Shown here: piece after piece, positions 26,749-52,162 of the stretch
How positions within the stretch are numbered: the stretch's first letter is position 1
How the letters are laid out: every line of letters begins with the position of its first letter
DNA from: Candidatus Hydrogenedentota bacterium
Lineage (GTDB): Bacteria; Hydrogenedentota; Hydrogenedentia; Hydrogenedentales; SLHB01
Reading direction: 5' to 3'
NCBI GenBank assembly: GCA_029552745.1
Contig: JAKPDK010000167.1
Coordinates: 137,973-201,972, forward strand
DNA length: 64,000 bases
Translations under genes and position numbers: made by a program
Notes under the pieces: generated by a model
What the model was told of the DNA's origin: nothing
Database searches by the model: none
The model's input: only the letters and a program-made list of their open reading frames with translations

Positions 26749-29430
26749 ATGAATCACGACTTATCAAAACCCGAATCAAGAGCCTACGCTCCGGCGTTTT
26801 TGTACGCGGCGGTCGTGCTGTCCGTTCTGGCGATCTTTCCATTCACACCGAACGTGGCACAACCCATCAAACTTTTTCTCGCTACGTTGTGTGTGACGAT
26901 GGCGTTACTCGCGCTATTCTACAGGAGCCTGTTTTCCAACCGTCTTACCGCGGGGATAAAGGGGCCACTGGGGACCATTATCCTGTTATACGTCGTTTTA
27001 CACGTTCTTGCGGCGGCATTTTCGGAGTTCCCCGTTAATAGTCTGATGGAACTACAACTACTCGTCGTCTGCACTTTGGCATTCTTTGCCTCTAAATACG
27101 CCTTCCAAGACCTCAAACATTTCCAAAACTTCCTGGTAGCGGCGTGTCTGGCGATGGGGTTGTCTTCGCTTTATGCATTCGCACAGAAAGCGGGCATAGA
27201 CCCCTTCCCCTGGGCAGACCGATCGGCAGATGAGTATCGAGAACTGCCTGCCACGTTCGGAAACGGCAATCTGGCGGCGCACATGCTCGCGCTGTGTGTG
27301 GTGTTTGCAATCTTTTTGGGCAGCGAGCGGCGTTACCGTTGGGCATGGGTTCTTTTGCCCGTTTATTTCCTACACCTTTATTGGACGCGACAACGAGGTG
27401 CGTGGGTCGGGTTTAGTGGCACGCTAGCCTTGCTCGGTATTTTCTTGATGGTGGGCAAGAAGGTGGTTTCGCCGTATCGTCGTACCGCCGCCACGCTGCT
27501 TTTGTGGTCGGCGGTAGGTGTCGTCTCGCTTGTGATCGTTGGTATACTCTGTCGCTTGCTTACGAACATCCCATTTCCCCTCGACCATGCGCTGATGTTG
27601 CGTTACTCCGGGTTTGCCAGTGGAGCTGAAATGATTCGGCAAAAACCGATCTTGGGGTGGGGGGCTGGCAACTATCCCCTGTTCAATCCGCTTTATTGGA
27701 CCGAATACGAACAGGAATACTTCGCGGTCAAAAACAGCATGAATTATCATGTCCATAACGAATGGTTCCAATCTGCCATTGATGCGGGAGTTCCTGCGGC
27801 AGGTCTTTTTCTTCTCTTGTTTCTAGCAGGGATAACCTTAGGATTGTTAACCGCAAGCAAATCTGCCGAACCTCACCGTCGGAGAATTGCTCTTCTGATC
27901 GCGGCATCTCTCTGCACGGTGCTGTTGGATGGAATGGTAGGTTTTAATCTTCATGTTGTCCCCGTGGGGCTCACCGTATTCGTTTTATTGGGTGTGTTGG
28001 AGACGCTGCATGCTGAAGAACCGAAAGTCTGTTCAGCGACCCAGGTACGGTTCACTGTCGGGCTTCTTGCAGGTGTTGCCCTGTTGGTATTTGTTTTGGG
28101 TTTTCGTGTGTTTTACAGTCAGATTTTACTAAAAGATGGCGAAGTTGCCTTGCATCAGCACAATGCGTTTCAAGCGGAACGCGTGTTGGGACGTGGAGAG
28201 CGTTTGGCGCCCTGGAACTGGGAATTTCCTAATTTGCGAGGACACGTGGCGCTGTCCGTTGAAAACCCGGATGCGGCGATTTTCCATTTGGAGCGGGCAT
28301 TGGCGAACAATCCGAACTGCATTCCTGTATTGAGCACACTCGGCCACGCGCATCTCATGCGGGTGCAACAAACGGGAATCACCGAGGAGACCTCAAACTC
28401 TGTAAAGGAAGAGATCCATGCGATACGCACCTATGCCGACCGCATTTTGGAAATCTGCCCATTACACCATTCCGGAGCCGCTTTGCGGGCAACTGCGGCG
28501 CTATTCGAAATGAACGTTGCGGGGTCGGAAATAAACGCAATGCAACGGCAGAATCTGCTGCAACAAGCCTATAACGACATGATGACGGCACTGCACTTTG
28601 CACCGGGACGCACCGCGCCAAACTATGTGACCCTAGCACTGGTTCACCAAGCATTGGGACAAACGAATAAAGCGCAACACGCCTTGCGCATGGCTTGTCG
28701 CCTGGAACCGGATAACGCGGATGCGTGGAACGCCTTTGAAACGTTTGCTTACAAGGAAAACCGTCTGCGGGTGTTCGAAGCCACGTTGACGGATGCCATC
28801 AAGACCTTACAGGGAAGGGACGACACCGACAGTTCAGCGGCGCTGGCTCGACTTTTGGTGGCGCAGGCACGGTTGTACGAGCGTGCTACCAAGGACATCG
28901 GACGCGCCGAACAGTCATTCCAAGAAGCCGTCAAAGCCGATCCCACTTCGGCAACCGTGTGGGATTCCTACAGCCGATTTGCTCGGCAGAATCAACGAAT
29001 GGAGTCTTTTCAAAACACTCTTCGTGAAGCGTGCTCCAGCTTGCCACCTGAAAAGAGTGAGGAACAAAGCATTTTGCTCGCCGTAGATACAGTGATCTCA
29101 AAAGGTCCTGACGCGATCGCCACGGCAGCGGAGAAACTAGAGCAGAGCATGATCGAACATCAACGGCGCGCGGCATATCAAGGAACTCGGATGCCGTTGC
29201 TAGCCTGGGCGACCCAATTTGTGGTTGAGGAATACGAATTACAAAAAGCGAGTATTACCCCGTCTGGCGACACGCTCATGCGGCTTGCCGTGGTGTTGGG
29301 TGAAGCCGGCGACACTCGTAATGCACTTCGATTAGCCGATCGAGCCCTCCCGGTGCTGCCAGATGCCGACCGAGGACGCGCCTTCTATATCCGCCAAAAA
29401 TTCCTGGAACGTTTGAAGCCGCGATCGTAA
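26749..29430 (+). CDS. O-antigen ligase family protein with C-terminal TPR region
   Basis: An 893-residue membrane protein. The first 440 residues hold about 11 membrane spans and the Wzy/WaaL-type periplasmic loop. Landmarks are WTRQRGAWVGFSG (conserved Arg residues), LGWGAGNYPLFNP and VHNEWFQSAIDAGVPAAG. Enzymes of this family polymerise O-units or transfer glycans to lipid A core or to proteins. After the last span (about residue 455) come roughly 440 residues of helical repeats of TPR type (for example AQHALRMACRLEPDNADAWN). The same arrangement occurs in many O-antigen ligase-like proteins of environmental bacteria. AAGGA is about 14 bases upstream, a poor spacing. A lipoprotein gene follows after 60 bases. 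Confidence 0.88.
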   Translation: MNHDLSKPESRAYAPAFLYAAVVLSVLAIFPFTPNVAQPIKLFLATLCVTMALLALFYRSLFSNRLTAGIKGPLGTIILLYVVLHVLAAAFSEFPVNSLMELQLLVVCTLAFFASKYAFQDLKHFQNFLVAACLAMGLSSLYAFAQKAGIDPFPWADRSADEYRELPATFGNGNLAAHMLALCVVFAIFLGSERRYRWAWVLLPVYFLHLYWTRQRGAWVGFSGTLALLGIFLMVGKKVVSPYRRTAATLLLWSAVGVVSLVIVGILCRLLTNIPFPLDHALMLRYSGFASGAEMIRQKPILGWGAGNYPLFNPLYWTEYEQEYFAVKNSMNYHVHNEWFQSAIDAGVPAAGLFLLLFLAGITLGLLTASKSAEPHRRRIALLIAASLCTVLLDGMVGFNLHVVPVGLTVFVLLGVLETLHAEEPKVCSATQVRFTVGLLAGVALLVFVLGFRVFYSQILLKDGEVALHQHNAFQAERVLGRGERLAPWNWEFPNLRGHVALSVENPDAAIFHLERALANNPNCIPVLSTLGHAHLMRVQQTGITEETSNSVKEEIHAIRTYADRILEICPLHHSGAALRATAALFEMNVAGSEINAMQRQNLLQQAYNDMMTALHFAPGRTAPNYVTLALVHQALGQTNKAQHALRMACRLEPDNADAWNAFETFAYKENRLRVFEATLTDAIKTLQGRDDTDSSAALARLLVAQARLYERATKDIGRAEQSFQEAVKADPTSATVWDSYSRFARQNQRMESFQNTLREACSSLPPEKSEEQSILLAVDTVISKGPDAIATAAEKLEQSMIEHQRRAAYQGTRMPLLAWATQFVVEEYELQKASITPSGDTLMRLAVVLGEAGDTRNALRLADRALPVLPDADRGRAFYIRQKFLERLKPRS

Positions 29431-32834: not shown

Positions 32835-34154
32835 ATGAAAACCGCAACACGCTTGGTAGATATTCCGGTACCACCGGTGATCGAAACGGCTGTCATTGTT
32901 CGTCTCGTTTTGCCGACCGATTCATCGTGGGAAGTGGAAGAATCCATTGCCGAAATCAAACGTTTGGCATGGACAGCAGGGGCACGTGCAGCCTGTGAGG
33001 TGATTCAGCGGCGGGAAAAGCCATGCCCCGCAACCTTGATCGGCAAAGGAAAAGCCAGAGAGCTGGAGGCGATCTGCAACGAGGTCGATGCTGACCTGGT
33101 TATTGTGGATGGAGAATTGAGCCCTTCGCAAGGTTCGAATCTCGAGGAGATCGTGGGGCGAAAGGTTGTAGACCGCACCCAACTCATTCTGGACATTTTT
33201 GCCCAGCGTGCAAAAACTCTGGAAGCCAAACATCAGGTCGAGTTAGCCCAATTACAATACCTGCTCCCACGCCTTGCCGGTCGCGGGTCGCTGATGCGGC
33301 AACAAGGGGGTATCGGGGTTCGTGGTCCCGGTGAACAAAAATTGGAAGTAGACCGACGGGTTATCCGTAACCGCATTTCACGACTTCAAGCCGAACTCTC
33401 CGAGATTCGCAAACAGCGCTGGGTACAGCGTAAACAGCGCAGAGAATCCGGCACGGCGACAGTCGCCTTGGTAGGCTACACCAATGCGGGAAAATCGTCG
33501 TTGCTGAACGCCTTAACGGGAGCGGGGGTCTTTGTCGAGGACAAACTCTTCGCCACACTCAGTCCCACGAGCCGACGCTGCAAACTTCCGAGCGGCATGG
33601 ACGCGGTATTTACCGACACGGTAGGGTTTGTGCGTAAACTGCCTCACTCCTTGGTTGCGGCTTTTCGTGCTACCTTGGAAGAGGTAAACGAGGCACAGGT
33701 CTTGTTGGTGGTAGCAGATGCCTCTGACCCCGCCGTTGAAGAACATATGGAAACCGTACATCAGGTTTTGGAAGAGATTGGCGCCCATGAAGTCCCTTTC
33801 ATCCGCGTGATCAACAAAATAGACCTGGTTGCCCCGGAACACGTTCGGCGGTTGCTGGATGCCCCTTCGAGTCTACGGACTGCAGAAGCCCACGTCGCGG
33901 TCTCGGCTTTGCACGGCGATAATTTGCAGGATCTGTTGGTTGCCGTCGACCGCGTATTGAGTCGCGGTCGACGCCGCGTTTTACTGCGGGTTCCTCAACG
34001 TGACGCCGGTGTGGTAGCCCTGTTACGTCAAATGGGGCATATTTTCAGTCAAACGTATGAACACAACGAGATCGTCATCGATGCGGAAGTGGTGCCTGCC
34101 GTAGAAGGAAAAGTGCGCCGATACATTGTGGACGGAGCCAAACGAACACCGTGA
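32835..34154 (+). CDS. hflX: Ribosome-associated GTPase HflX
   Basis: A 439-residue GTPase of the Obg-HflX group, which splits or rescues stalled ribosomes. The N-terminal HflX domain (about 20-190) includes TLIGKGKARELEAI, DRTQLILDIFAQRAKTLEAK and the glycine-rich GRGSLMRQQGGIGVRGPGE. The G domain follows with G1 VALVGYTNAGKSSLLN (about 215), G3 FTDTVGFVRKLPH and G4 INKIDL. No Shine-Dalgarno motif is evident before the ATG. It overlaps the downstream Nudix gene by four bases (GTGA). Confidence 0.96.
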   Translation: MKTATRLVDIPVPPVIETAVIVRLVLPTDSSWEVEESIAEIKRLAWTAGARAACEVIQRREKPCPATLIGKGKARELEAICNEVDADLVIVDGELSPSQGSNLEEIVGRKVVDRTQLILDIFAQRAKTLEAKHQVELAQLQYLLPRLAGRGSLMRQQGGIGVRGPGEQKLEVDRRVIRNRISRLQAELSEIRKQRWVQRKQRRESGTATVALVGYTNAGKSSLLNALTGAGVFVEDKLFATLSPTSRRCKLPSGMDAVFTDTVGFVRKLPHSLVAAFRATLEEVNEAQVLLVVADASDPAVEEHMETVHQVLEEIGAHEVPFIRVINKIDLVAPEHVRRLLDAPSSLRTAEAHVAVSALHGDNLQDLLVAVDRVLSRGRRRVLLRVPQRDAGVVALLRQMGHIFSQTYEHNEIVIDAEVVPAVEGKVRRYIVDGAKRTP

Positions 34155-34630
34155 ACGAACCCGCTGAAGTGGATACCAAAAACGCTCATCTTCCCGTCAT
34201 TCGCATCCGTGTCGCACCTATTATCCTCCAAGACGACAACATCCTTCTGGTACGGCACGTAAAACAAGGTAAGACCTATTGGCTGTTGCCAGGCGGCGGC
34301 GTTGAATATGGCGAATCCGTCGCCGAGGCATTGGCTCGTGAGGTAAAAGAGGAGACCAATCTGGATATCCAAGTAGGCGATTTGGTGTTCGTCAATGACA
34401 GCATTCCTCCGGACAGGCATCGCCACGTTTTGAATCTATATTTCCTCGCGTTCGTCGTCGGAGGAACCCTACGTATCGGCGACGACTCCAATCTTGCGGA
34501 GTTGCGTTTTATGCCGCTCGCGGAGTTACCGCATCTCGAGTTTTATCCGGACATTCGGACGGAACTTTTGAAAGCAATTCAGATGGGATTTCCGAACCGC
34601 GCCTGTTATTTGGGTAACTTGTGGAAATAA
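34151..34630 (+). CDS. Nudix hydrolase
   Basis: A 159-residue Nudix protein, hydrolysing a nucleoside diphosphate linked to another group; the substrate is unknown. The Nudix box is at about residues 48-71 (GGVEYGES, then REVKEETNLD); the usual Gly near its end is Asn. The start is a GTG overlapping the hflX stop codon by four bases, which suggests translational coupling. ADP-ribose, NADH or oxidised nucleotides are possible substrates. It is followed after 30 bases by the radical SAM cluster. Confidence 0.9.
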   Translation: MNEPAEVDTKNAHLPVIRIRVAPIILQDDNILLVRHVKQGKTYWLLPGGGVEYGESVAEALAREVKEETNLDIQVGDLVFVNDSIPPDRHRHVLNLYFLAFVVGGTLRIGDDSNLAELRFMPLAELPHLEFYPDIRTELLKAIQMGFPNRACYLGNLWK

Positions 34631-34660: not shown

Positions 34661-36091
34661 ATGCGAGTCGCCTTGCTCAATCCAATGTTCGGTCCCGGGT
34701 TCACAAAATCCGCCCGATGGTATGCACGCTCGCGCGGCAGAGTGCAGCGCCATCCGGACTATCTGTGCACCGCTGCCGCCGTGCTGGAAAAGGCAGGTCA
34801 CGATATTTTTCTGTTGGATGCGCAAGCTAAGGACATCCCCATCGAACATGTCCTTCCCCGCCTGCAAGCGTTTCACCCTGATATGGTGGTCTACCAGACG
34901 TCTACCCCTTCGATTGATTCCGATATACGCGCGGCAAGGCTTTGCAAAGAAACGACCGACGCGTTGAATGTTTTCGTGGGCTCTCACGTCACCGCGGAGC
35001 CGGAAGACACGTTGAACCGTGCCGACGGAGCAGTCGATGTGATCGCACTAGGAGAGTACGATTACACCTTGCGTGATCTTGCCAATGGCACTCCCCGAGA
35101 ACAATGCCCAGGAATAGCTTGGCGAGAGGGTGCCACAATCAAAAAAACGGAACGCCGCCCCCTAATCGAGGACCTTGACGCGTTGCCTTTTCCCGCATGG
35201 CGCCACATTGACCTTGAAGACTACCGAGACGCGGGCAAGCTCTTTCCGTTTCTCACTTTGATCAGCGGACGAGGTTGTTGGGGGCGTTGCACGTTTTGCC
35301 AACTACCTCAGGTGATGAATGGCAGGCGGTACCGGCCGCGCAGCGTAGAGCATATCTTGGAAGAAATCGACTATGACTTGCACTTGTTCCCCCAACTACG
35401 GGAAATCATGTTCGAGGATGATACCCTGGTGGCGCCGGCGAATCGAGACCGACTCGCCCAGTTATGCGAATCCTTGATTCGGAGGCGTTTCCGTATTGCG
35501 TGGAGCGCCAATGCCCGCGTGGATGGGGCTGATCTCGATCTCTTGCGACTGATGAAACGAGCCGGTTGCCGCATGCTATGTGTCGGATTTGAATTTGGGG
35601 ACCAAAACGTCTTGGACTGCGTGAAGAAAGGCACAACGGTCGAGGAAATGAGACAGTTTGCAGAAAACGCGCGGCGAGCCGGCGTGCGCGTGCACGGCTG
35701 TTTCATGATCGGTGGCCCCGGGGAAACCCGCGAAACCGCCCAAAAGACCATCGAATTGGCTTGTTCGTTGCCCATCGATACGGCACAGTTTAGCGGAGTA
35801 GTGGCTTACCCCGGCACGGAGTATTATCAATGGGCAAAACAAAACGGCTATCTTGTGCCCACCCAGTGGCGGGACTGGGTGGATGAAAACTACGAACAAG
35901 TGACGACTCAAAGTCTTCCGGGCTTGGACGCTGCTTCCATTAACGAATTTGTCGATCGAGGTTTGCGCTCGTTCTATTTGCGCCCGAGTCAAATGTTTCG
36001 TATGCTGTGGGGCATTCGCTCCTGGGCGGACGTGCGTGCCAAATGGCATGGGTTGTGCAGTTTTGTAGGTTATTTCTCAGGCAAATCCTGA
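34661..36091 (+). CDS. B12-binding-type radical SAM protein (1 of 3)
   Basis: A 476-residue protein of the cobalamin-dependent radical SAM group. The N-terminal Rossmann-like part (MRVALLNPMFGPGF, about 1-160) resembles the B12-binding domain of this family. The radical SAM barrel begins with the cluster motif GRGCWGRCTFC (three Cys, CxxxCxxC, about residue 208), then MFEDDTL, CVGFEFGDQNVLD and GCFMIGGPGETRE. The tail of about 60 residues is rich in Trp and Arg. Such enzymes perform methylations and other difficult reactions on lipids, sugars, cofactors or natural products; here the substrate is unknown. It is the first of four clustered radical SAM genes on one strand. Confidence 0.9.
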   Translation: MRVALLNPMFGPGFTKSARWYARSRGRVQRHPDYLCTAAAVLEKAGHDIFLLDAQAKDIPIEHVLPRLQAFHPDMVVYQTSTPSIDSDIRAARLCKETTDALNVFVGSHVTAEPEDTLNRADGAVDVIALGEYDYTLRDLANGTPREQCPGIAWREGATIKKTERRPLIEDLDALPFPAWRHIDLEDYRDAGKLFPFLTLISGRGCWGRCTFCQLPQVMNGRRYRPRSVEHILEEIDYDLHLFPQLREIMFEDDTLVAPANRDRLAQLCESLIRRRFRIAWSANARVDGADLDLLRLMKRAGCRMLCVGFEFGDQNVLDCVKKGTTVEEMRQFAENARRAGVRVHGCFMIGGPGETRETAQKTIELACSLPIDTAQFSGVVAYPGTEYYQWAKQNGYLVPTQWRDWVDENYEQVTTQSLPGLDAASINEFVDRGLRSFYLRPSQMFRMLWGIRSWADVRAKWHGLCSFVGYFSGKS

Positions 36092-36111
36092 TATACATGA
36101 CGAGGTGCTGA

Positions 36112-37170
36112 ATGAATGCTGCCGAAAGCCATGACAATGTATTTAGCTACCTACAGCACCGTATTCTGACTCATTATAACGAGGCGCGCATGATTCTCGA
36201 CGGCAAGATGCCGCCGCCCCGCACGGCAATCGTGTATCCCACCTACGTGTGTAATCAAAACTGTACTTATTGCGAATACCATTGTGAAAATGAGGATGTC
36301 CGCGCTGTCATGCCCAACGATCAGTTCAGAAAACTGATGAAGGACTTGCGGGAATTGGGTGTATGCGGCACGGAATTCTGTGGTGGCGGAGAACCCGCCC
36401 TCCATCCCTTACTCGCCCAAGTCATACGTGAATCCCATGCGGACGGCATGCGTATCGGTTTGTTAACGAACGGCACAAAGTGCTACGGAGAACTCGCAGA
36501 AGCCTTGGTCGACTGTGCCAGTTATGTGCGGATTGGATTCGATGGGGCGACGGCAGAAACCCATGAGCGCATCAAACGCCCCAAACATCCAGACGCCACC
36601 TTTGCAAAGGTGTGTGAAAACGTCAAGAATTTGGTGGCGCTGCGCAATCGAAAAAACTCCAGACTTCGGGTCAGCATGAAGGTGTTGTTGGATGCCACCA
36701 ATTACCATGAGATTGAAGCCTGTGTGCGCTTGGCGCTTTCGCTCGGGGTCGACTCTATCCAATTCAAGGCGGCGCGCTTGTGCGACACAGAACTGAATGC
36801 GAAACAGACTCGAGAAGCAAAAGAACGGATTGCAAAAGCACGGGATCAGTTTCCCACGTTGCCGGTGGTTGGCAGTGTTGACAAGCTCAACATGAGATCT
36901 CGGTGTTGGTTGACACCGCTGCAGATCATGATCGATCCGCTGGGCGATGTCTACCTCTGTTGCTATTATGTGCACCGGAAGCCGTCCCACACGATTGGGA
37001 ATGCCTTCGAGCAGCCTTTGAAGGATATCTGGTATAGCGAAAGACACTGGGAAGCCATACGAAACATCAAGCCAGCGGAATGTAATAACTTGGACTGCCG
37101 TTTCGTCCACTATAATGAAATTATGACTCGGCTTCTTGTGGGTGACGAAGGGCAACTCGAGTTCATTTGA
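36112..37170 (+). CDS. Radical SAM protein with SPASM-type C-terminus
   Basis: A 352-residue radical SAM protein without a B12 domain. The cluster motif is CNQNCTYC (residues 47-54), followed by EFCGGGEPALHP, the SAM-binding GGGEP motif, and LLTNGT. The C-terminal third has a set of cysteines in the order expected for a SPASM or twitch domain: MRSRCWLTPLQIMIDPLGD, VYLCCYY, then AECNNLDCRF. It would hold extra iron-sulfur clusters. Relatives mature peptides, modify sugars or act on aminoglycosides. GAGG precedes the ATG by six bases. It sits 20 bases after the first B12-type gene and 65 bases before the next. Confidence 0.9.
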   Translation: MNAAESHDNVFSYLQHRILTHYNEARMILDGKMPPPRTAIVYPTYVCNQNCTYCEYHCENEDVRAVMPNDQFRKLMKDLRELGVCGTEFCGGGEPALHPLLAQVIRESHADGMRIGLLTNGTKCYGELAEALVDCASYVRIGFDGATAETHERIKRPKHPDATFAKVCENVKNLVALRNRKNSRLRVSMKVLLDATNYHEIEACVRLALSLGVDSIQFKAARLCDTELNAKQTREAKERIAKARDQFPTLPVVGSVDKLNMRSRCWLTPLQIMIDPLGDVYLCCYYVHRKPSHTIGNAFEQPLKDIWYSERHWEAIRNIKPAECNNLDCRFVHYNEIMTRLLVGDEGQLEFI

Positions 37171-37235
37171 GCCGAGTCGGGCTACAGGTAGCATCCCGGC
37201 ATGTCCACACAAAACAGGAGAACGCATAAGACGCC

Positions 37236-38645
37236 ATGAAGGTGTTGTTGCTGAATCCTCCGGGACCGTTTTGTCGCGCCGGTTCGCGCTGGCCTCATCG
37301 CCGCAAAACACATCGCGTCGGAATCGATTATCACCCCTTTCCGTTTGCATTGGCATACGCCACATCGCGACTTCTCGCGGATGGATACGACGCCCGTGTG
37401 TTGGATTGCATTGCTTCGGACATTTCGACCGAAGAGCTTGAAAAAGAGGTCGAACAGTTCCGTCCTGACATTGTCGTCCTGGAAACCAGCGCGCCGAGTT
37501 TTCATGCGGATGCCGCCCTCGTCAAAAACCTACCGTGTCCGGCGTTGGCAGTTGGCGCCCATGCCACAGCAACGGTTCGGGAACACTTGGACGCGGGGTT
37601 TGCTGGAGTCATCCGCGGCGAATACGATCAGGTGATTTCCCAGGCGGTACATCTTGGACAAGAACCCTATCTCGCGACACCAAACCACCCGGAAGCCACC
37701 CACGCCCCGCTCGTTCAAGACCTGGATTCCCTCCCATATCCCGCATGGGATCAATTGCCTATGGAAAAATATAACGACCCCTTTTGTCGGGGACGTTCCA
37801 TCACGGTGCTGTCTTCTCGCGGCTGTCCTTTCGAGTGTTGCTTCTGCAACATAGCCCCGTATGCCGGCAAACGCGCCTATCGGAGAAGAAGCCCTGCCGC
37901 CGTTTGCGATGAAATCGAGCTCCTGATCCAACGATATCATCCGGACGAAGTCTATTTTGATGATGACACCATCACCGTAAATCGCCATCACATTTTGGCG
38001 CTCTGTGAGGAAATTCGGCGTAGAAACTGGGGAATCCCGTTCAGTTGTATGGGCAATGCCACGGTGGATACGGATATCTTGGAAGCCATGGCGGCTGCAG
38101 GGTGCCGGGCGTTCAAGTTTGGCGTCGAAACAGGCGACCCGGAGGTGATGAGGAAGATTCCCAAGAGCTGCAATCTGGACGATGTTGTGAGAACAGTCAA
38201 CGACTGCCGCCGTCTGGGCATTCAAACGCACGCCACGTTCTTGTTCGGTTTGCCAGGGGAAACCCGTGAGGCGGCGTTGCGTACCATCGAGTTTGCGTTG
38301 CAACTCCATACCCACACACTGCAGTTTGCCATTGCGACGCCCTATCCCGGTACGGTGTTCTACGAAGAGGCAGTCGCTAAGGGTTGGTTGACGAAGTCCA
38401 GCTGGATGGAGTTCGACCCCGCTGGCGGGGCTGTGGTCTCGTACCCGGGTTATACAGCGGACGATATCGCCGCTATGCACGAACTCGCTTGGCGAAGATG
38501 GCAGCGGCACATGTTGCTGCACCGTCCCAAAACCTTGTGGCATCACTTTTCCAACGCGTGGCGTCGCGAAGGTGTGGGAGGGCTTTGGCGCCTCTGTCGC
38601 TACGGCGTATCTCGGTTGGTAAAGATTTTGGACACCTCGTTATGA
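37236..38645 (+). CDS. B12-binding-type radical SAM protein (2 of 3)
   Basis: A 469-residue protein built like the first cluster member. The N-terminal cobalamin-binding-type domain (MKVLLLNPPGPF, then ALAYATSRLLADGYDARVLD) ends about residue 150. The radical SAM motif SSRGCPFECCFC follows near residue 200, then VYFDDDTITVN, KFGVETGDPEVM and FLFGLPGETREA. The C-terminal 60 residues are rich in Trp, Arg and His. The ATG of the next gene overlaps its stop codon in ATGA. The nearest ribosome-binding-like motif (AGGAG) is about 15 bases upstream, longer than usual. Confidence 0.9.
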   Translation: MKVLLLNPPGPFCRAGSRWPHRRKTHRVGIDYHPFPFALAYATSRLLADGYDARVLDCIASDISTEELEKEVEQFRPDIVVLETSAPSFHADAALVKNLPCPALAVGAHATATVREHLDAGFAGVIRGEYDQVISQAVHLGQEPYLATPNHPEATHAPLVQDLDSLPYPAWDQLPMEKYNDPFCRGRSITVLSSRGCPFECCFCNIAPYAGKRAYRRRSPAAVCDEIELLIQRYHPDEVYFDDDTITVNRHHILALCEEIRRRNWGIPFSCMGNATVDTDILEAMAAAGCRAFKFGVETGDPEVMRKIPKSCNLDDVVRTVNDCRRLGIQTHATFLFGLPGETREAALRTIEFALQLHTHTLQFAIATPYPGTVFYEEAVAKGWLTKSSWMEFDPAGGAVVSYPGYTADDIAAMHELAWRRWQRHMLLHRPKTLWHHFSNAWRREGVGGLWRLCRYGVSRLVKILDTSL

Positions 38646-39952
38646 GAGTTCTACTTATCAACCCCGGTAGCCCCCGTGCACTCAAGAAAGAGAATCTTGG
38701 GCTGGCGTTTTTAGCCGCGGCATTAAGCGCCGATAACCACGATGTACGGATCGCAGATGAAAACGCAGGGCATTGTGTAGAAAAAGTTGTGGATGGGTTT
38801 CAGCCCGACGTTATCGGCATCTCTTTCATGACGATGTTCGCCCCACGCGCCTACGCACTCGCTGAAGTTCTAAGGCATCGGCGACCGGTACCTCTCGTTG
38901 CGGGCGGGGCTCATCCAACCGCACTCCCCGAGGAAGCGCTACAACATTTCGACTGTGTCATCCGAGGCGAAGGGGAGTTGTCGCTGCCACGCGTTCTGCG
39001 CAACGGCACATTATCCGGAATCGTCGAGCCGCATCCACCGGAGGATTTGGATGCACTACCGATGCCAAGAAGAGATTTACTGGAAATGGAGTTTTACGCC
39101 AATCAAAAAGAACAGCTTGCGGGGTTGTCATATCGAACACTTGGCATTATCACCAGTCGGGGATGTCCGCATCGGTGCGTCTTTTGTGCCAATTCCACGC
39201 GTACCATGGCCGTGCGCTACCACAGTCCGGAGCGCGTTTTAACCGAGATGGCCGAGCTCGTGAAAAGGTACCACATCGAGAGCATTGCCTTTTATGACGA
39301 GCAAATTGCCGCCGATCCCTTCCGTTTTCGACAGATCTGCGAAGGGATGGTCGAACGAAAATTGAACTATCTAAAATGGGAGTGTCAGATTCACCCGCGA
39401 TCGGCTCAACCCGAATTGTTGAAGATCATGAAACGTGCTGGGTGTGTTCAAGTGGCGATTGGGTTTGAGAGCGGCAGCCAGAAGATCTTAGACGCCATCA
39501 ACAAAAACATGCTTGTCGAAGAAAACCTTCAAGCGGCACGACAGGTCCACGAAGCTGGGCTTCGTCTCCGAGGTTGTTTCATCATCGGGACACCCGGCGA
39601 AACCCGCGAGGATATCGCCGCCACACAACGCTTCATGGAAACGGCCGCAGTAGACTTCGCCTCATTACATTTTCTTACGCCCTTGCCCGGAAGCCTGCTT
39701 TACGAGAAGTATTCGGAGCGGATCAACCAAGCCGCAATTCCATGGGATAGGTTCACCGCCGGCGACCCCGATACATTTATTTGTAATGAGGCGATGTCGC
39801 CGGAAGAACAAAAAGAGACGTTTCGCTCGCTCAGTGCCCAATTGGCATTCCGAAATTACACTTGGAAAGAAAAACTGCGGCGCGCCTATCGGAATCCGCG
39901 CCACGCCCTGCGGATCCTTTATGACCGATGGGTTCACACGAAAACAAAGTAA
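38642..39952 (+). CDS. B12-binding-type radical SAM protein (3 of 3)
   Basis: A 436-residue protein. The start at 38642 is chosen because it begins the conserved MRVLLINPGSP and overlaps the previous stop codon in ATGA; an upstream extension in this frame only runs through the preceding gene. It carries the B12-type N-terminal domain (GISFMTMFAPRAYALAEVL, AGGAHPTALPEEAL), the motif TSRGCPHRCVFC (about residue 174), FYDEQIAADP, AIGFESGSQKILDAI and CFIIGTPGETRED. The tail holds conserved-looking Trp, Arg and Tyr residues. It is last in the cluster and is followed by a hairpin terminator. Confidence 0.92.
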   Translation: MRVLLINPGSPRALKKENLGLAFLAAALSADNHDVRIADENAGHCVEKVVDGFQPDVIGISFMTMFAPRAYALAEVLRHRRPVPLVAGGAHPTALPEEALQHFDCVIRGEGELSLPRVLRNGTLSGIVEPHPPEDLDALPMPRRDLLEMEFYANQKEQLAGLSYRTLGIITSRGCPHRCVFCANSTRTMAVRYHSPERVLTEMAELVKRYHIESIAFYDEQIAADPFRFRQICEGMVERKLNYLKWECQIHPRSAQPELLKIMKRAGCVQVAIGFESGSQKILDAINKNMLVEENLQAARQVHEAGLRLRGCFIIGTPGETREDIAATQRFMETAAVDFASLHFLTPLPGSLLYEKYSERINQAAIPWDRFTAGDPDTFICNEAMSPEEQKETFRSLSAQLAFRNYTWKEKLRRAYRNPRHALRILYDRWVHTKTK

Positions 39953-39968: not shown

Positions 39969-40002
39969 AAACCGCGTAAGGCGGTCATGCCTTACGCGGT
40001 TT
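39969..40002 (-). terminator. Intrinsic terminator, mainly for the minus-strand gene
   Basis: AAACCGCGTAAGGC pairs perfectly with GCCTTACGCGGTTT around a six-base loop. On the minus strand the stem runs into TTTTTATTTTT. On the plus strand it follows the radical SAM cluster and ends with a short T-run, so it may work both ways. Confidence 0.9.
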
Positions 40003-40020: not shown

Positions 40021-41793
40021 TCACATAGAATCGTAGACTTTCTGAAGCGGGGTTTTCCGTTCAAGGATGTTTTGCTTTTCTGCCAACACTTGAATCCGCT
40101 CCAGATAATCCGGCGTACGGCTGCTGGCTATCGTCGACTCGACGGTACGAATTACCTCCGGCGGCAAATTCTGAACGAAGTCATAACGCGGCGCCCCAGA
40201 ATCCGCCACATTCTGGAAGATACCGATGTTCTTCCCGTCTATCGTGCGGTAATACACGCTCCAATTGCCATTCATCACGCATTCCGCCCAAACATCGCGG
40301 TCGGTTCCAAAACGGTCACGCGTCGGAATCTTCGCAAAGAAATACTCTCGGGCACGCGCGATCTCGAGTTCTTTGCGATACAGCGCGGTGTATTCGCGCA
40401 GCAATTCGGGATCAACCCAATTGGCAGCGGATGCCTTCGCTTTCAGTTGCTCCACCGCGGCAACACGAGCAGCATGAGAATACTTCTCTGGTGTGAGCGG
40501 TATGTTCTCCCGTATGGTCACGGCAAGCAAGTCTATCGCATGCTCCAACGCCTCTTTGGTCATCATGCGGCGCTGGTCGGCTTCCTCCAGAAGCCCTACC
40601 TGGCTCTGAAGGCGATCTACCTCCGCCAACAAGCCATCCCGCCGTGCGGCTGTAATGGCGGTTTGATTTGCCAGGTCTTCGTATTCGCGTTCCGCTTTTA
40701 GATATTCTTCGTTTTTCAGCTCGATATCGCGTTCCAACTCGGCGAGCTCATTCCGACGGGCTTGGAGTTCGTCCGTCGCAGCCGCCACTTGTGCTGTAAG
40801 CTCCACTTTCTGCTGCCGAAGCGCCTCAATTTCCTCGACGCTCAATGTCTGTTGTTCTGGCGGCAGCTGGGCTGTCTCGGCGATTTGGCGTTTCAACGAT
40901 TCATTTTCACTTTTGAGCGAAGTCATCTGCGTTTGGGCTCTGTCCAGCTCCGCTTTCCAGGGATTCATGGGAAGCGTTTTCAAATAGTTATAACTTACCA
41001 TCGGCCCAAGGACGACACCCACAGCAAGACCCACAATAAGCAGCAAGATACTCACCACAACCCCGACGACACCGCCTTTTTTCTTAGGGGCAGGCCGCGC
41101 AGGCGGCTTCATTTCAACAGGTGGGGGCGTGGGCGGAACCTGGGGACCACCCGTATCCATTCTGAAGTCCGGCGGTGGTGTCGTCGGCGCAACGCCGCCA
41201 CCAAAACCACCCCCAAAATCCCCACCGAACCCGAAATCTTTATCTTCCCCTGCGCTGGATGCGCCTCCGAAAATCGGCGTTTCCATGGTACGCGTCGGCG
41301 TGGAAGACGCATCCTCCACTCTCCCAAACGAATCGCCATACGACGGCGTATCCAAATCAGTACCGGAGGTTAACCCTACTGCGGGTGTCTCCGGATTGAA
41401 ATCGCTATCGCGAACGAGATCTTCAAACCCCGTGCCCGGCTTGGCTTCCCCTCTTGCCGGAGTCAACGTCGGCGTATCGAACGCACTATCACTTATCGGT
41501 GTCTCGAACCCACCCGAAGACACGGGCGTCTGAGGCTCTGCACCCCCCAATTCGATGGAAGAAGGCGGTGGTTTGATGGCGCCACCCGTGGGTTCCGGCG
41601 TCTCCACCGGAATATCGCTAATGGGCGGTAAACCGCTGAATGGCTCTTCCGAAGAACTGCCAAGGGGCGGTAGACCGCTGTCCGAACTCAAGCCTTCCGA
41701 CGATTCAAACTCGCTAAGCGGCGGAAGACTGTCCAAATCGTCCTTCTCGGGTTTCTTCTCCGGCTGTTGATCGTTCATGTTTTTCTCAGCCAT
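40021..41793 (-). CDS. Single-span protein with low-complexity N-terminus and long coiled coil
   Basis: Not recognised as a family. The start at 41793 has AGGAGG nine bases upstream. The product is 590 residues. Residues 1-235 are acidic and Pro/Ser/Gly-rich with short recurring units (GLPPLG, GLPPIS, ETPISD, DTPTLT) and a Gly/Phe-rich stretch. Basic KKK leads into one membrane span at about 241-263. A coiled coil follows (about 280-410), then a folded-looking C-terminal region (about 410-590) with DRDVWAECVMNGNWSVYYR. The likely topology is disordered N-terminus inside, coiled coil outside. It has its own promoter and terminator, so it is a single-gene unit. A scaffold role in the envelope is only a guess. 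Confidence 0.85.
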   Translation of the reverse strand: MAEKNMNDQQPEKKPEKDDLDSLPPLSEFESSEGLSSDSGLPPLGSSSEEPFSGLPPISDIPVETPEPTGGAIKPPPSSIELGGAEPQTPVSSGGFETPISDSAFDTPTLTPARGEAKPGTGFEDLVRDSDFNPETPAVGLTSGTDLDTPSYGDSFGRVEDASSTPTRTMETPIFGGASSAGEDKDFGFGGDFGGGFGGGVAPTTPPPDFRMDTGGPQVPPTPPPVEMKPPARPAPKKKGGVVGVVVSILLLIVGLAVGVVLGPMVSYNYLKTLPMNPWKAELDRAQTQMTSLKSENESLKRQIAETAQLPPEQQTLSVEEIEALRQQKVELTAQVAAATDELQARRNELAELERDIELKNEEYLKAEREYEDLANQTAITAARRDGLLAEVDRLQSQVGLLEEADQRRMMTKEALEHAIDLLAVTIRENIPLTPEKYSHAARVAAVEQLKAKASAANWVDPELLREYTALYRKELEIARAREYFFAKIPTRDRFGTDRDVWAECVMNGNWSVYYRTIDGKNIGIFQNVADSGAPRYDFVQNLPPEVIRTVESTIASSRTPDYLERIQVLAEKQNILERKTPLQKVYDSM

Positions 41794-41855
41794 TGGGCAA
41801 AACCTCCTTATTTGGCGAAGGGCAGCAGACGCCACCTCCCCATCTTAACTTTTGA

Positions 41856-49252: not shown

Positions 49253-52162
49253 CTATTTCTGTACAGGGATGATGATGCCTCGCATGATAACACGTTGGGT
49301 GAGTATAAATACGAGCAACGTCGGGATGGCAGCCACCACGAGACCCGCGAAAATCACATATTGCGGCGAGTCGAATTGCATATCATATAACCAGACCATC
49401 AGGGTCCACATCTTCGGGTCTTGACAAACGATAAAGGCATACATGAACGTGGTGTACGCAATGTTAAATGTTTGCAGCGCAATCACAGCGAGGATAGGTT
49501 TGCTAAGGGGCAGGGTGACATTGCGAAACATCCAGAGTTCTTTCGCGCCTTCGATCTCCGCCGACTCATACAGATTTTGTGGAAGGCTGTCGAAAAATCC
49601 TTTTAGGAGAAAAATGGCGTAGCCGTTGGCGATACTAGGCAGAATAAGCGCCCAAAATGTATTAAGCAAACTAACCTTCGGGGACGAAAAACCGATCATT
49701 CTCACCAGGGCAGGCGTGACCAAAATCCCGAGAAGCGCCGCACCTGTCGCCGCTACCCCCACCGGAGATATCCGAAGGCGTGTATTCTTCGCGCCGAGAC
49801 GCGCTATACCCCAAAGCACAAAGATACCCAGAGCAAGAACAGTAAGTAGGAGGGCGCGAAGCGTTTCCGGCTTAACCGAAACCTCCAGAGAAAACGCGCC
49901 GAATTGCGTCGCCGCATGACGCAGTGCCCCAAGGGCTGCTCCTGCCACGATGCAACCTTCCACTAGGTTCCAAAGGCGTGGGGCAAGTGGCATTACTTTA
50001 TAGCTGGCAAAGAGTAGGATGGAAGCAAAGACAGCGCCAACGAGAAGATAGCCCAGGGGAAAATTCTTCAACAGAAGAAACCCGGGGATCATGGTCACTT
50101 CGGGGGGAAACGCCATCGTCGCCATGAAGAACAAAAGGACCTTGTAGGTGCTGGGCAATTGAAAACGGGAGAGGGCGTAAGCCGCTAATGGATTGACCAC
50201 GAGGGTGCACACGATCATGGCAACGACAAAAAACACGGTGTTATACAAGGCACGGCCGTGGAACAGAATGAAGTTCAACACGACGCGATAGTTGGACACA
50301 AGGAACTCCCACCGAATAGCAGACTTGTTTTGCTGCAGGTCCAACCAGTCCCGCGCATACTCTTGGTTTGGGTAGTCACGAAACGTCTGGTTTTTTCTTT
50401 CAGAAAAGGCATCGATTTGACGGATCCAAGAAATTAGCATCCGATCGTTTTTCAGAAATGCCTCGCGGATGTGTTCCAAGGAATCCAAGCCCAGGCGATC
50501 TAGCAACGTCGGATGGGGTACTTCCGCGTCACGTTTCTTGAGATCGTTTTCCACTATTTGAAACAGTTCGGTTGGCTCACTCCGTCCATATTCTTCCAAA
50601 ATAGCAAGTGCAGTTTTGCCAAACGGCGTGAGTTGTGCGACTAATTCTTCTCTCGTCCCCATAGGGTACGTCACGGACGCACACACGGCACGTTCCAACT
50701 CCTCAACCGTCTGGTATTTCTTTTCCAAGTAACGTGCAAACAGGGTATCGGGCGTGACCAAGCGTATCTCGCTCAACGGACAGACCTCCATGATGAAACT
50801 ATTGAAATCTCGAGCGAGAGGTGTTTTTAGCGGCACAGGTTGAGGAATAGACAGCGACGTGACAGCGGCGCGAAGTGATGAAACAGGGGGCGTCACCGTT
50901 ATCCCATATTTTTGACGGAACAGATCCAGGGCTTTTGCTTCATCACCGTCCGCCGTAGAGAGATAGGTAGAGACCAGATAATCGCGAAATGCCCCGATGC
51001 CGTTTTCGGTGATCCGAATGAACTGGAGATGGATCTCGTTTCGGACGTATTCGCTCCAATCTTCCACTGTCTGTAATGTCAACCCCCCGTCAAAATCTTC
51101 TGAAAACAAAAACTCGCGGAAATCGGATAACACGGGAGTCTGCGTATCCGAGGTAATCGGTTCGCTGGGACGAAACCGAGCAAACGCGTCCGGCTCCACA
51201 CGATAGACGTTTGCGGCATTTTCTGCCGAGCCGTATTTTTTCATCAAGAAGTTCCGAAAGGCGTCTTGCGCGCTCGGCTGAAACCGTATATTTCGCACCC
51301 GCCAGTCATCCGCGGCATAGGCAATCCACTCGCGGCGGTCCAGCGGCAGGCTGGGCGCGCGTTCGTCCAATATCACTTCTGCGTAAGAACGGTACGTGGT
51401 GCCGTGTGTCGCGTTATACTGTTCGATGTCGCGGGAATATTTAGGCCAAATATAGGTGGAAAGAAATTGGGCGTCCGCGGACAGAGGCAACAAGAAATGC
51501 GGCTCGTTACGACGGAGCTCTTGCTTCGTTTGAACCATGTGGTTGCAGATGGGGTTTTCTTCTGGCACGTAACGGCGGTTTGTCCAGATCTCAGCGGGCG
51601 GCAATATCATGTAGAAATGCCCGAAATTGAGCCCCCATTCGCCGTTGAGCGCCTCGATATCTCCATGAAATTGGGCGGACAGCATGCCTAACCAACGTTG
51701 ATAGAGCCAGGGTTTACGGAAAGAAGGCGAATAAAAAGCCGCTAACTGGAACCATGACAGCGGAAGACGACCATCAGTACCCGGAAACACATCATGCCAG
51801 TCATCGCTTTCCAGAAAAGCCAGCCAATCCTTGAGCAACGCTTCAGAATAGACCGCCGGCGGCAACACGTCCTCAAATCGATTGAACTGTGTTTTCCAAG
51901 TACTGTTCATCCATGATTCCGACTGGTTGTACCGTTCCTCGACGTATTTTTGAAAAAGAACCGCGTCGTCATACCAATAGCGGGGGATGACGTCGTACTC
52001 ATGCATATCGACAGGGCTCTTGAACGAGCCGGACAGCATGACGCCGAAGGGATAGATCATCGCGAAACTACCAGCGATCAGCGTCAGATAGATCAGCCCG
52101 ATCAAGACCCGTGTCTTAGGATATTTCCTTCCTATTTTTGAAATAATCGGCAAAGAGGTCAC
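49253..52162 (-). CDS. Giant carbohydrate ABC permease (MalG-like) with periplasmic and membrane insertions
   Basis: A 969-residue permease subunit; ordinary MalG-type proteins have about 280-300 residues. After the first span (about 20-45) there is an insertion of about 590 residues (about 48-637) that must lie in the periplasm. It contains repeated Trp/Tyr/Phe-rich helical pieces but no domain I recognise. The permease core resumes with ALYNTVFFVVAMIVC at 638. Between LLLKNFPL (about 705) and LLNTFWALILP (about 832) there is a second insertion of about 125 residues with roughly four more hydrophobic segments. The EAA loop is ESAEIEGAKELWMFRNV (about 866). The start is a GTG at 52162 with a weak ribosome binding site. 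It follows the fused binding protein-permease gene by 29 bases. Confidence 0.9.
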   Translation of the reverse strand: MTSLPIISKIGRKYPKTRVLIGLIYLTLIAGSFAMIYPFGVMLSGSFKSPVDMHEYDVIPRYWYDDAVLFQKYVEERYNQSESWMNSTWKTQFNRFEDVLPPAVYSEALLKDWLAFLESDDWHDVFPGTDGRLPLSWFQLAAFYSPSFRKPWLYQRWLGMLSAQFHGDIEALNGEWGLNFGHFYMILPPAEIWTNRRYVPEENPICNHMVQTKQELRRNEPHFLLPLSADAQFLSTYIWPKYSRDIEQYNATHGTTYRSYAEVILDERAPSLPLDRREWIAYAADDWRVRNIRFQPSAQDAFRNFLMKKYGSAENAANVYRVEPDAFARFRPSEPITSDTQTPVLSDFREFLFSEDFDGGLTLQTVEDWSEYVRNEIHLQFIRITENGIGAFRDYLVSTYLSTADGDEAKALDLFRQKYGITVTPPVSSLRAAVTSLSIPQPVPLKTPLARDFNSFIMEVCPLSEIRLVTPDTLFARYLEKKYQTVEELERAVCASVTYPMGTREELVAQLTPFGKTALAILEEYGRSEPTELFQIVENDLKKRDAEVPHPTLLDRLGLDSLEHIREAFLKNDRMLISWIRQIDAFSERKNQTFRDYPNQEYARDWLDLQQNKSAIRWEFLVSNYRVVLNFILFHGRALYNTVFFVVAMIVCTLVVNPLAAYALSRFQLPSTYKVLLFFMATMAFPPEVTMIPGFLLLKNFPLGYLLVGAVFASILLFASYKVMPLAPRLWNLVEGCIVAGAALGALRHAATQFGAFSLEVSVKPETLRALLLTVLALGIFVLWGIARLGAKNTRLRISPVGVAATGAALLGILVTPALVRMIGFSSPKVSLLNTFWALILPSIANGYAIFLLKGFFDSLPQNLYESAEIEGAKELWMFRNVTLPLSKPILAVIALQTFNIAYTTFMYAFIVCQDPKMWTLMVWLYDMQFDSPQYVIFAGLVVAAIPTLLVFILTQRVIMRGIIIPVQK

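Follow-up and report, generated by a model that had tools for sequence, protein, structure and literature searches.

HpnJ (family TIGR03471) forms bacteriohopanetetrol cyclitol ether from its glucosamine form, AprD4 is a radical SAM 1,2-diol dehydratase acting on aminoglycoside sugars, and DesII and BlsE are radical SAM enzymes acting on sugars. We compared these systems with four adjacent genes, R1 to R4, lying within a stretch of 64,000 nucleotides (the window) from a Candidatus Hydrogenedentota bacterium. R1 and R3 have the same two-domain architecture as HpnJ, although they share only about 35% (R1) and about 30% (R3) identity with it, the genome has no full squalene-hopene cyclase, and hpnI and hpnK are not adjacent. 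On annotated records, the closest relatives of R1 and R3 that we found outside hopanoid synthesis were HpnJ-like genes belonging to glycan clusters (on Lawsonia pLaw1, in Eleftheria, and on Solidesulfovibrio and Azospirillum plasmids); these are 26-36% identical and, unlike the Hydrogenedentota cassette, lie among glycosyltransferases.

The predicted structure of R3 (mean pLDDT 80) was closest to AprD4 (Z 35.4, rmsd 2.8, 408 residues aligned; next entry, Z 28.6), a match that indicates a fold class and does not imply function, and R3 differs from AprD4 in its NCBIfam score (114 against a cut-off of 500) and in the lack of aminoglycoside genes here. For the predicted structure of R2 (mean pLDDT 77), DesII, BlsE and SkfB tied at Z about 25, again suggesting fold class rather than function, and R2 tied equally with RiPP maturases, including SkfB and SuiB. 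Identity of R2 with DesII and BlsE was 17-19%, and the BlsE NCBIfam score was 52 against a cut-off of 400.

Layout of the gene run

All four open reading frames are intact on the plus strand at 34661-39952, and each carries a Pfam Radical_SAM domain (64-85 bits), confirming the original prediction of four adjacent same-strand radical SAM genes. The features of the locus are:

32835 to 34154, plus strand: hflX GTPase gene, opening the gene run (TIGR03156, 449 bits, over the cut-off)
34151 to 34630, plus strand: NUDIX hydrolase gene, directly 5' of R1 (Pfam NUDIX, 77.7 bits; canonical Nudix box)
34661 to 36091, plus strand: R1, HpnJ-like radical SAM protein of predicted B12 type (476 aa; motif C206-x3-C210-x2-C213)
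36112 to 37170, plus strand: R2, radical SAM protein with a SPASM/twitch C-terminus (352 aa; motif CNQNCTYC)
37236 to 38645, plus strand: R3, radical SAM protein of predicted B12 type, distantly HpnJ-like (469 aa)
38642 to 39952, plus strand: R4, radical SAM protein of predicted B12 type with no close named family (436 aa)
39969 to 40002, no strand: 14-pair stem in the interval between R4 and the convergent gene (pattern scan)
40021 to 41835, minus strand: convergent gene for a coiled-coil membrane protein (604 aa), not a cassette member

We placed the start of R4 at the ATG at 38642, rather than at the TTG open reading frame start upstream at 38384. This ATG overlaps the stop codon of R3 as ATGA (a 4-nt overlap), and the coupling of two of the genes through ATGA that had been predicted was borne out for this pair. 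The GTG start of the NUDIX gene overlaps the hflX stop codon in the same manner (GTGA), and the remaining spacings are 30 nt (NUDIX-R1), 20 nt (R1-R2) and 65 nt (R2-R3). We infer that hflX-NUDIX-R1-R2-R3-R4 may be co-transcribed as one run, although hflX is a conserved neighbor that is not thought to have a role in the cassette chemistry. The NUDIX gene, which the original prediction did not mention, is kept upstream of R1 in relatives.

The 14-pair stem, which begins 16 nt 3' of R4 and was the longest in a pattern scan whose total matches were near chance, is likely to be a terminator shared by R4 and the convergent gene. The protein encoded by the latter has a low-complexity N-terminus and matched no Pfam family convincingly.

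Elsewhere in the window, an 847-aa frame at 52192-54735 matches an ABC permease domain as well as a solute-binding protein of the sugar type, and the next gene (49253-52162; 969 aa) also has a permease domain. A gene at 26749-29430, 5 kb upstream of the NUDIX gene, encodes an O-antigen ligase-like domain followed by TPR repeats; it was not seen nearby in any cassette relative.

Domains, families and ancestry of the enzymes

R1 and R4 contain both a Radical_SAM domain (81.4 and 84.9 bits, respectively) and a B12-binding domain (50.5 and 69.9 bits). In R3 the Radical_SAM domain scored 76.2 bits, with a B12-binding match of 29.5 bits, under the curated cut-off of 32.1, and the R3 model aligns from residue 1 with the B12-type enzymes TsrM, OxsB and MgmA, both domains being covered. 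By domain content, R1, R3 and R4 are thus of the cobalamin-dependent radical SAM type and are predicted to bind B12; three N-terminal domains of this kind had been expected, and they were recovered in R1 and R4 by Pfam cut-off and in R3 by predicted fold. The single SPASM-type C-terminus that had been proposed is that of R2 (Pfam SPASM, 42.1 bits, over the cut-off). The cysteines of the CxxxCxxC motif are invariant among orthologues of R1, R2 and R3, and C265, C283, C284, C324 and C329 of R2 are invariant in 12 orthologues; a SPASM pattern with two clusters would need more auxiliary cysteines than these, which makes one cluster more likely.

None of the four proteins reached the cut-off of any named NCBIfam family. 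The best named family for both R1 and R3 was HpnJ, on whose profile R1 scored 353.8, R3 231.1 and R4 114.4 bits against a cut-off of 577.6, whereas true HpnJ scores 843.9. Proteins of the R1 type across the order scored about 300-372 bits on this profile, and they therefore appear to be a distinct subfamily. The best NCBIfam score of R4 was 121.9 bits against a cut-off of 251, and that of R2 was with a tungsten-cofactor maturase (86 bits against 380). The highest scores of R1-R4 against other families were likewise below their cut-offs, i.e., BchE (142/481), HpnR (85/650), the ladderane B12 radical SAM family (114/360) and BzaD (93/450). As judged by these profiles, none of R1-R4 belongs to a named enzyme family. 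The original prediction held that a single pathway would be contradicted if each enzyme fell in a different well-known family; with no family cut-off passed, that was not what we found.

In a tree of 70 proteins, the 25 Hydrogenedentota R1 proteins formed one clade, whose sister was the Lawsonia glycan-cluster enzyme, followed by HpnJ; R1 and HpnJ share a well-supported clade. R3 grouped with the Eleftheria enzyme and with a paralogue from its own genome on contig C23, and R4 did not group with any named lineage. Because several other branches were long, we relied only on the R1-Lawsonia-HpnJ grouping and on each R group holding together. R1, R3 and R4 represent long-separated lineages and did not arise as recent copies of one another.

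Distribution and co-inheritance of the cassette

R2, R3 and R4 occur together in 12 of the 68 Hydrogenedentota genomes searched, with order and orientation unchanged; the comparison of neighborhoods suggested with the original prediction recovered a recurrent gene order. R3 was present in 13 of the 68, and an R2 orthologue was found in 12 genomes, in all of which R2-R3-R4 were together. Ten of the 12 also have R1 upstream of R2 (in one genome, G014, R1 is split over two contigs), while G010 and G012 keep R2-R4 with no adjacent R1 and no R1-type HpnJ match. In six relatives one or two small lipoprotein genes lie between R1 and R2. These lipoproteins (L035 and five relatives) belong to one family, to which no Pfam entry matched, and are almost confined to the cassette interior in one subgroup.

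R1, usually accompanied by NUDIX, is present without R3 in about 15 genomes. Because R1 occurs there without R2-R4, the cassette consists of two separable modules, i.e., R1 (with NUDIX) and R2-R3-R4. Most cassettes and many R1-only genomes have NUDIX upstream of R1, in several relatives hflX precedes NUDIX or R1, and no recurrent conserved genes were found downstream of R1 in the R1-only genomes. In G015, R1 lies directly opposite the convergent gene that closes the cassette in this window, an arrangement suggesting that R2-R4 was gained or lost as a block between two long-standing neighbors; G010 and G012, with R2-R4 and no R1 seen adjacent, indicate that this block is independent of that neighborhood. 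Regardless of the cassette, 53 of 60 relatives each have a single copy of the convergent gene, so we regard it as an order-wide single-copy landmark and rejected it as a cassette partner.

A scan of the genome collection for R3 found Hydrogenedentota-type cassettes only, although it relied on two peptide patterns, so that absence elsewhere is not proven. Two contigs labeled Nitrospinia (L055) and Nitrospiraceae (L048) carry cassette genes resembling those of Hydrogenedentota and are probably mis-binned or mislabeled assemblies. Our literature search found no paper on the R1-R4 cassette.

Estimates of dN/dS from two close genome pairs were 0.029 and 0.035 for R1, 0.037 and 0.024 for R2, 0.048 and 0.029 for R3, and 0.036 and 0.019 for R4. 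An overlap of R3 and R4 by 1-4 nt is found in 11 of the 12 cassettes. The R1, R3 and R4 parts of the tree share the subgroups G009+G021 and G027+G052, and R3 and R4 also share G003+G020 and G010+G012; such largely matching subgroups are as expected if the genes travel together. Support for one functional cassette comes from gene order and overlap, both of them conserved, from gene trees that largely match and from purifying selection, and R1-R4 is a real unit in a subset of Hydrogenedentota. The original prediction of one unit stands insofar as the cassette is conserved, but needs amending in that R1 (with NUDIX) and R2-R3-R4 are separable. Joint action of the four enzymes is more secure than the identity of their product.

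What the enzymes may act on

The reading that we tentatively prefer, as a real possibility that falls somewhat short of probable, is that R1-R4 modify, by radical steps in series, a sugar belonging to a surface glycan or glycolipid. The unit on which they would act in succession would be a precursor sugar or one already linked to lipid, and would end up in the surface glycan or glycolipid. By analogy with HpnJ, R1 might catalyze a sugar ring rearrangement or methylation; R2, given its DesII/BlsE-like predicted fold, might remove, invert or eliminate a substituent; and R3, with its AprD4-like predicted fold, might together with R4 carry out dehydration or methylation at further positions. The NUDIX enzyme may clear a nucleotide-linked precursor.

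This proposal draws on the neighborhoods of relatives, which were picked from search hits and not at random. The Lawsonia plasmid cluster containing the sister protein of R1 encodes glycosyltransferases, GalE, a SIS isomerase, a HAD hydrolase and a GHMP kinase, and the Eleftheria cluster with the R3 relative encodes glycosyltransferases, an epimerase and a PIG-L deacetylase. More distant HpnJ-like enzymes in Solidesulfovibrio and Azospirillum adjoin glycosyltransferase or GDP-fucose synthase genes; those of S. carbinolicus, S. magneticus and Azospirillum lipoferum are among glycosyltransferase/sugar-nucleotide genes, and that of A. argentinense adjoins kinase, transketolase and oxidoreductase genes, with no glycosyltransferase listed. 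A NUDIX gene adjoins an HpnJ-like enzyme in Solidesulfovibrio, and another lies near such an enzyme in Azospirillum; the support from these is weak, since they are not close homologues of the cassette NUDIX (identity of 36% across 120 aa and 34% across 61 aa, respectively).

Within the genome itself, paralogues on contig C106 lie among glycosyltransferases, and there a single frame (L080:9497-11413) encodes both a PssD/Cps14F-like glycosyltransferase (128 bits; cut-off 110) and a B12-type radical SAM enzyme, the surrounding cluster also holding glycosyltransferase and alpha-mannosidase genes. The C18 paralogue adjoins two glycosyltransferases, and the C23 paralogue has no obvious glycosyltransferase context. 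In G007, an LPG_synthase_TM gene and a methyltransferase gene precede R3, with a glycosyltransferase nearby, and a gene of the LPG_synthase_TM family also lies two genes downstream of true HpnJ in Mycetohabitans.

Several observations weigh against a sugar substrate. The cassette in the window adjoins no glycosyltransferase gene, as the original prediction had stated, and no sugar gene, and the same holds for most of the cassettes in relatives. Substrates of radical SAM enzymes change quickly, so the neighbors of relatives that are 26-36% identical are weak evidence. One relative, in Azoarcus, adjoins fatty-acid genes, another, in Burkholderia stagnalis, is in a peptide-like cluster with three radical SAM enzymes, R2 ties equally with RiPP maturases in fold, and R4 is unplaced. 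The three kinds of product originally suggested were a modified membrane lipid, a surface sugar and a cofactor; the neighborhoods of relatives favor the surface sugar, while hopanoids and the lipid and cofactor families tested are disfavored. Readings in which the substrate is a lipid, a peptide or a cofactor are less supported than the sugar reading.

Modification of the hydrocarbon part of a membrane lipid (a hopanoid, a ladderane-like lipid or another isoprenoid or fatty chain) seems unlikely. HpnJ, HpnR and the ladderane family are in the same superfamily as R1, R3 and R4, whose C-terminal helices are basic, and the Azoarcus neighborhood fits such a role, but R1, R3 and R4 score far under the HpnR, ladderane and BchE cut-offs, and no gene in the 60 relatives exceeds that of HpnJ. 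The genome, which is 99.7% complete, has only a 30-bit partial match to squalene-hopene cyclase, against about 475 bits for the full enzyme in G003, G006, G020 and G024, and among cassette genomes a strong match was found only in G003, G006 and G020. A hopanoid role is therefore unlikely, and we rejected a hopanoid pathway. The part of the HpnJ substrate concerned is the sugar of a glycosylated hopanoid lipid (PMC12583986); with no full squalene-hopene cyclase here, HpnJ-like chemistry would need another sugar carrier.

We also consider it doubtful that the cassette matures a ribosomal peptide or protein. RiPP clusters often encode SPASM domains and B12 radical SAM enzymes, R2 resembles SkfB and SuiB in predicted fold, and small lipoproteins are encoded between R1 and R2 in the six relatives. 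However, no RiPP family cut-off was reached, and no adjacent precursor peptide gene was found inside the run, whose gaps (at most 65 nt) leave no room for one. Neither this genome nor six other R3-bearing genomes have the lipoprotein family, which we rejected as an obligate substrate.

Synthesis or alteration of a small cofactor (e.g., a corrinoid lower ligand or metal cofactor) is very unlikely. BzaD-type enzymes are B12 radical SAM proteins and the top match of R2 is the tungsten-cofactor maturase, but these scores are far under their cut-offs, no cofactor genes are near the cassette, and an Rfam scan of the window gave no match, e.g., to a cobalamin riboswitch. That the four are unrelated enzymes, chance neighbors kept by slow gene shuffling, is highly improbable: R1, usually with NUDIX, does occur without R2-R4, and the flanking hflX and convergent genes are also old neighbors, but R2-R3-R4 is gained or lost as a block, is complete in every genome with an R2 orthologue, conserves the R3-R4 overlap and persists in G010 and G012 with no R1 seen adjacent.

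Returning to the sugar reading, a more specific version of it is a new Hydrogenedentota pathway in which four serial radical SAM enzymes build a carbocyclic, branched or deoxygenated glycolipid sugar, as a non-hopanoid counterpart of HpnJ; this is a long shot that we raise with considerable reserve. Four consecutive radical SAM steps, three of them of the B12 type, in one compact cassette would make an unusually radical-rich pathway in Hydrogenedentota, an uncultured phylum represented here by metagenome assemblies, and through the cassette HpnJ-type chemistry may reach beyond hopanoids to surface sugars in general.
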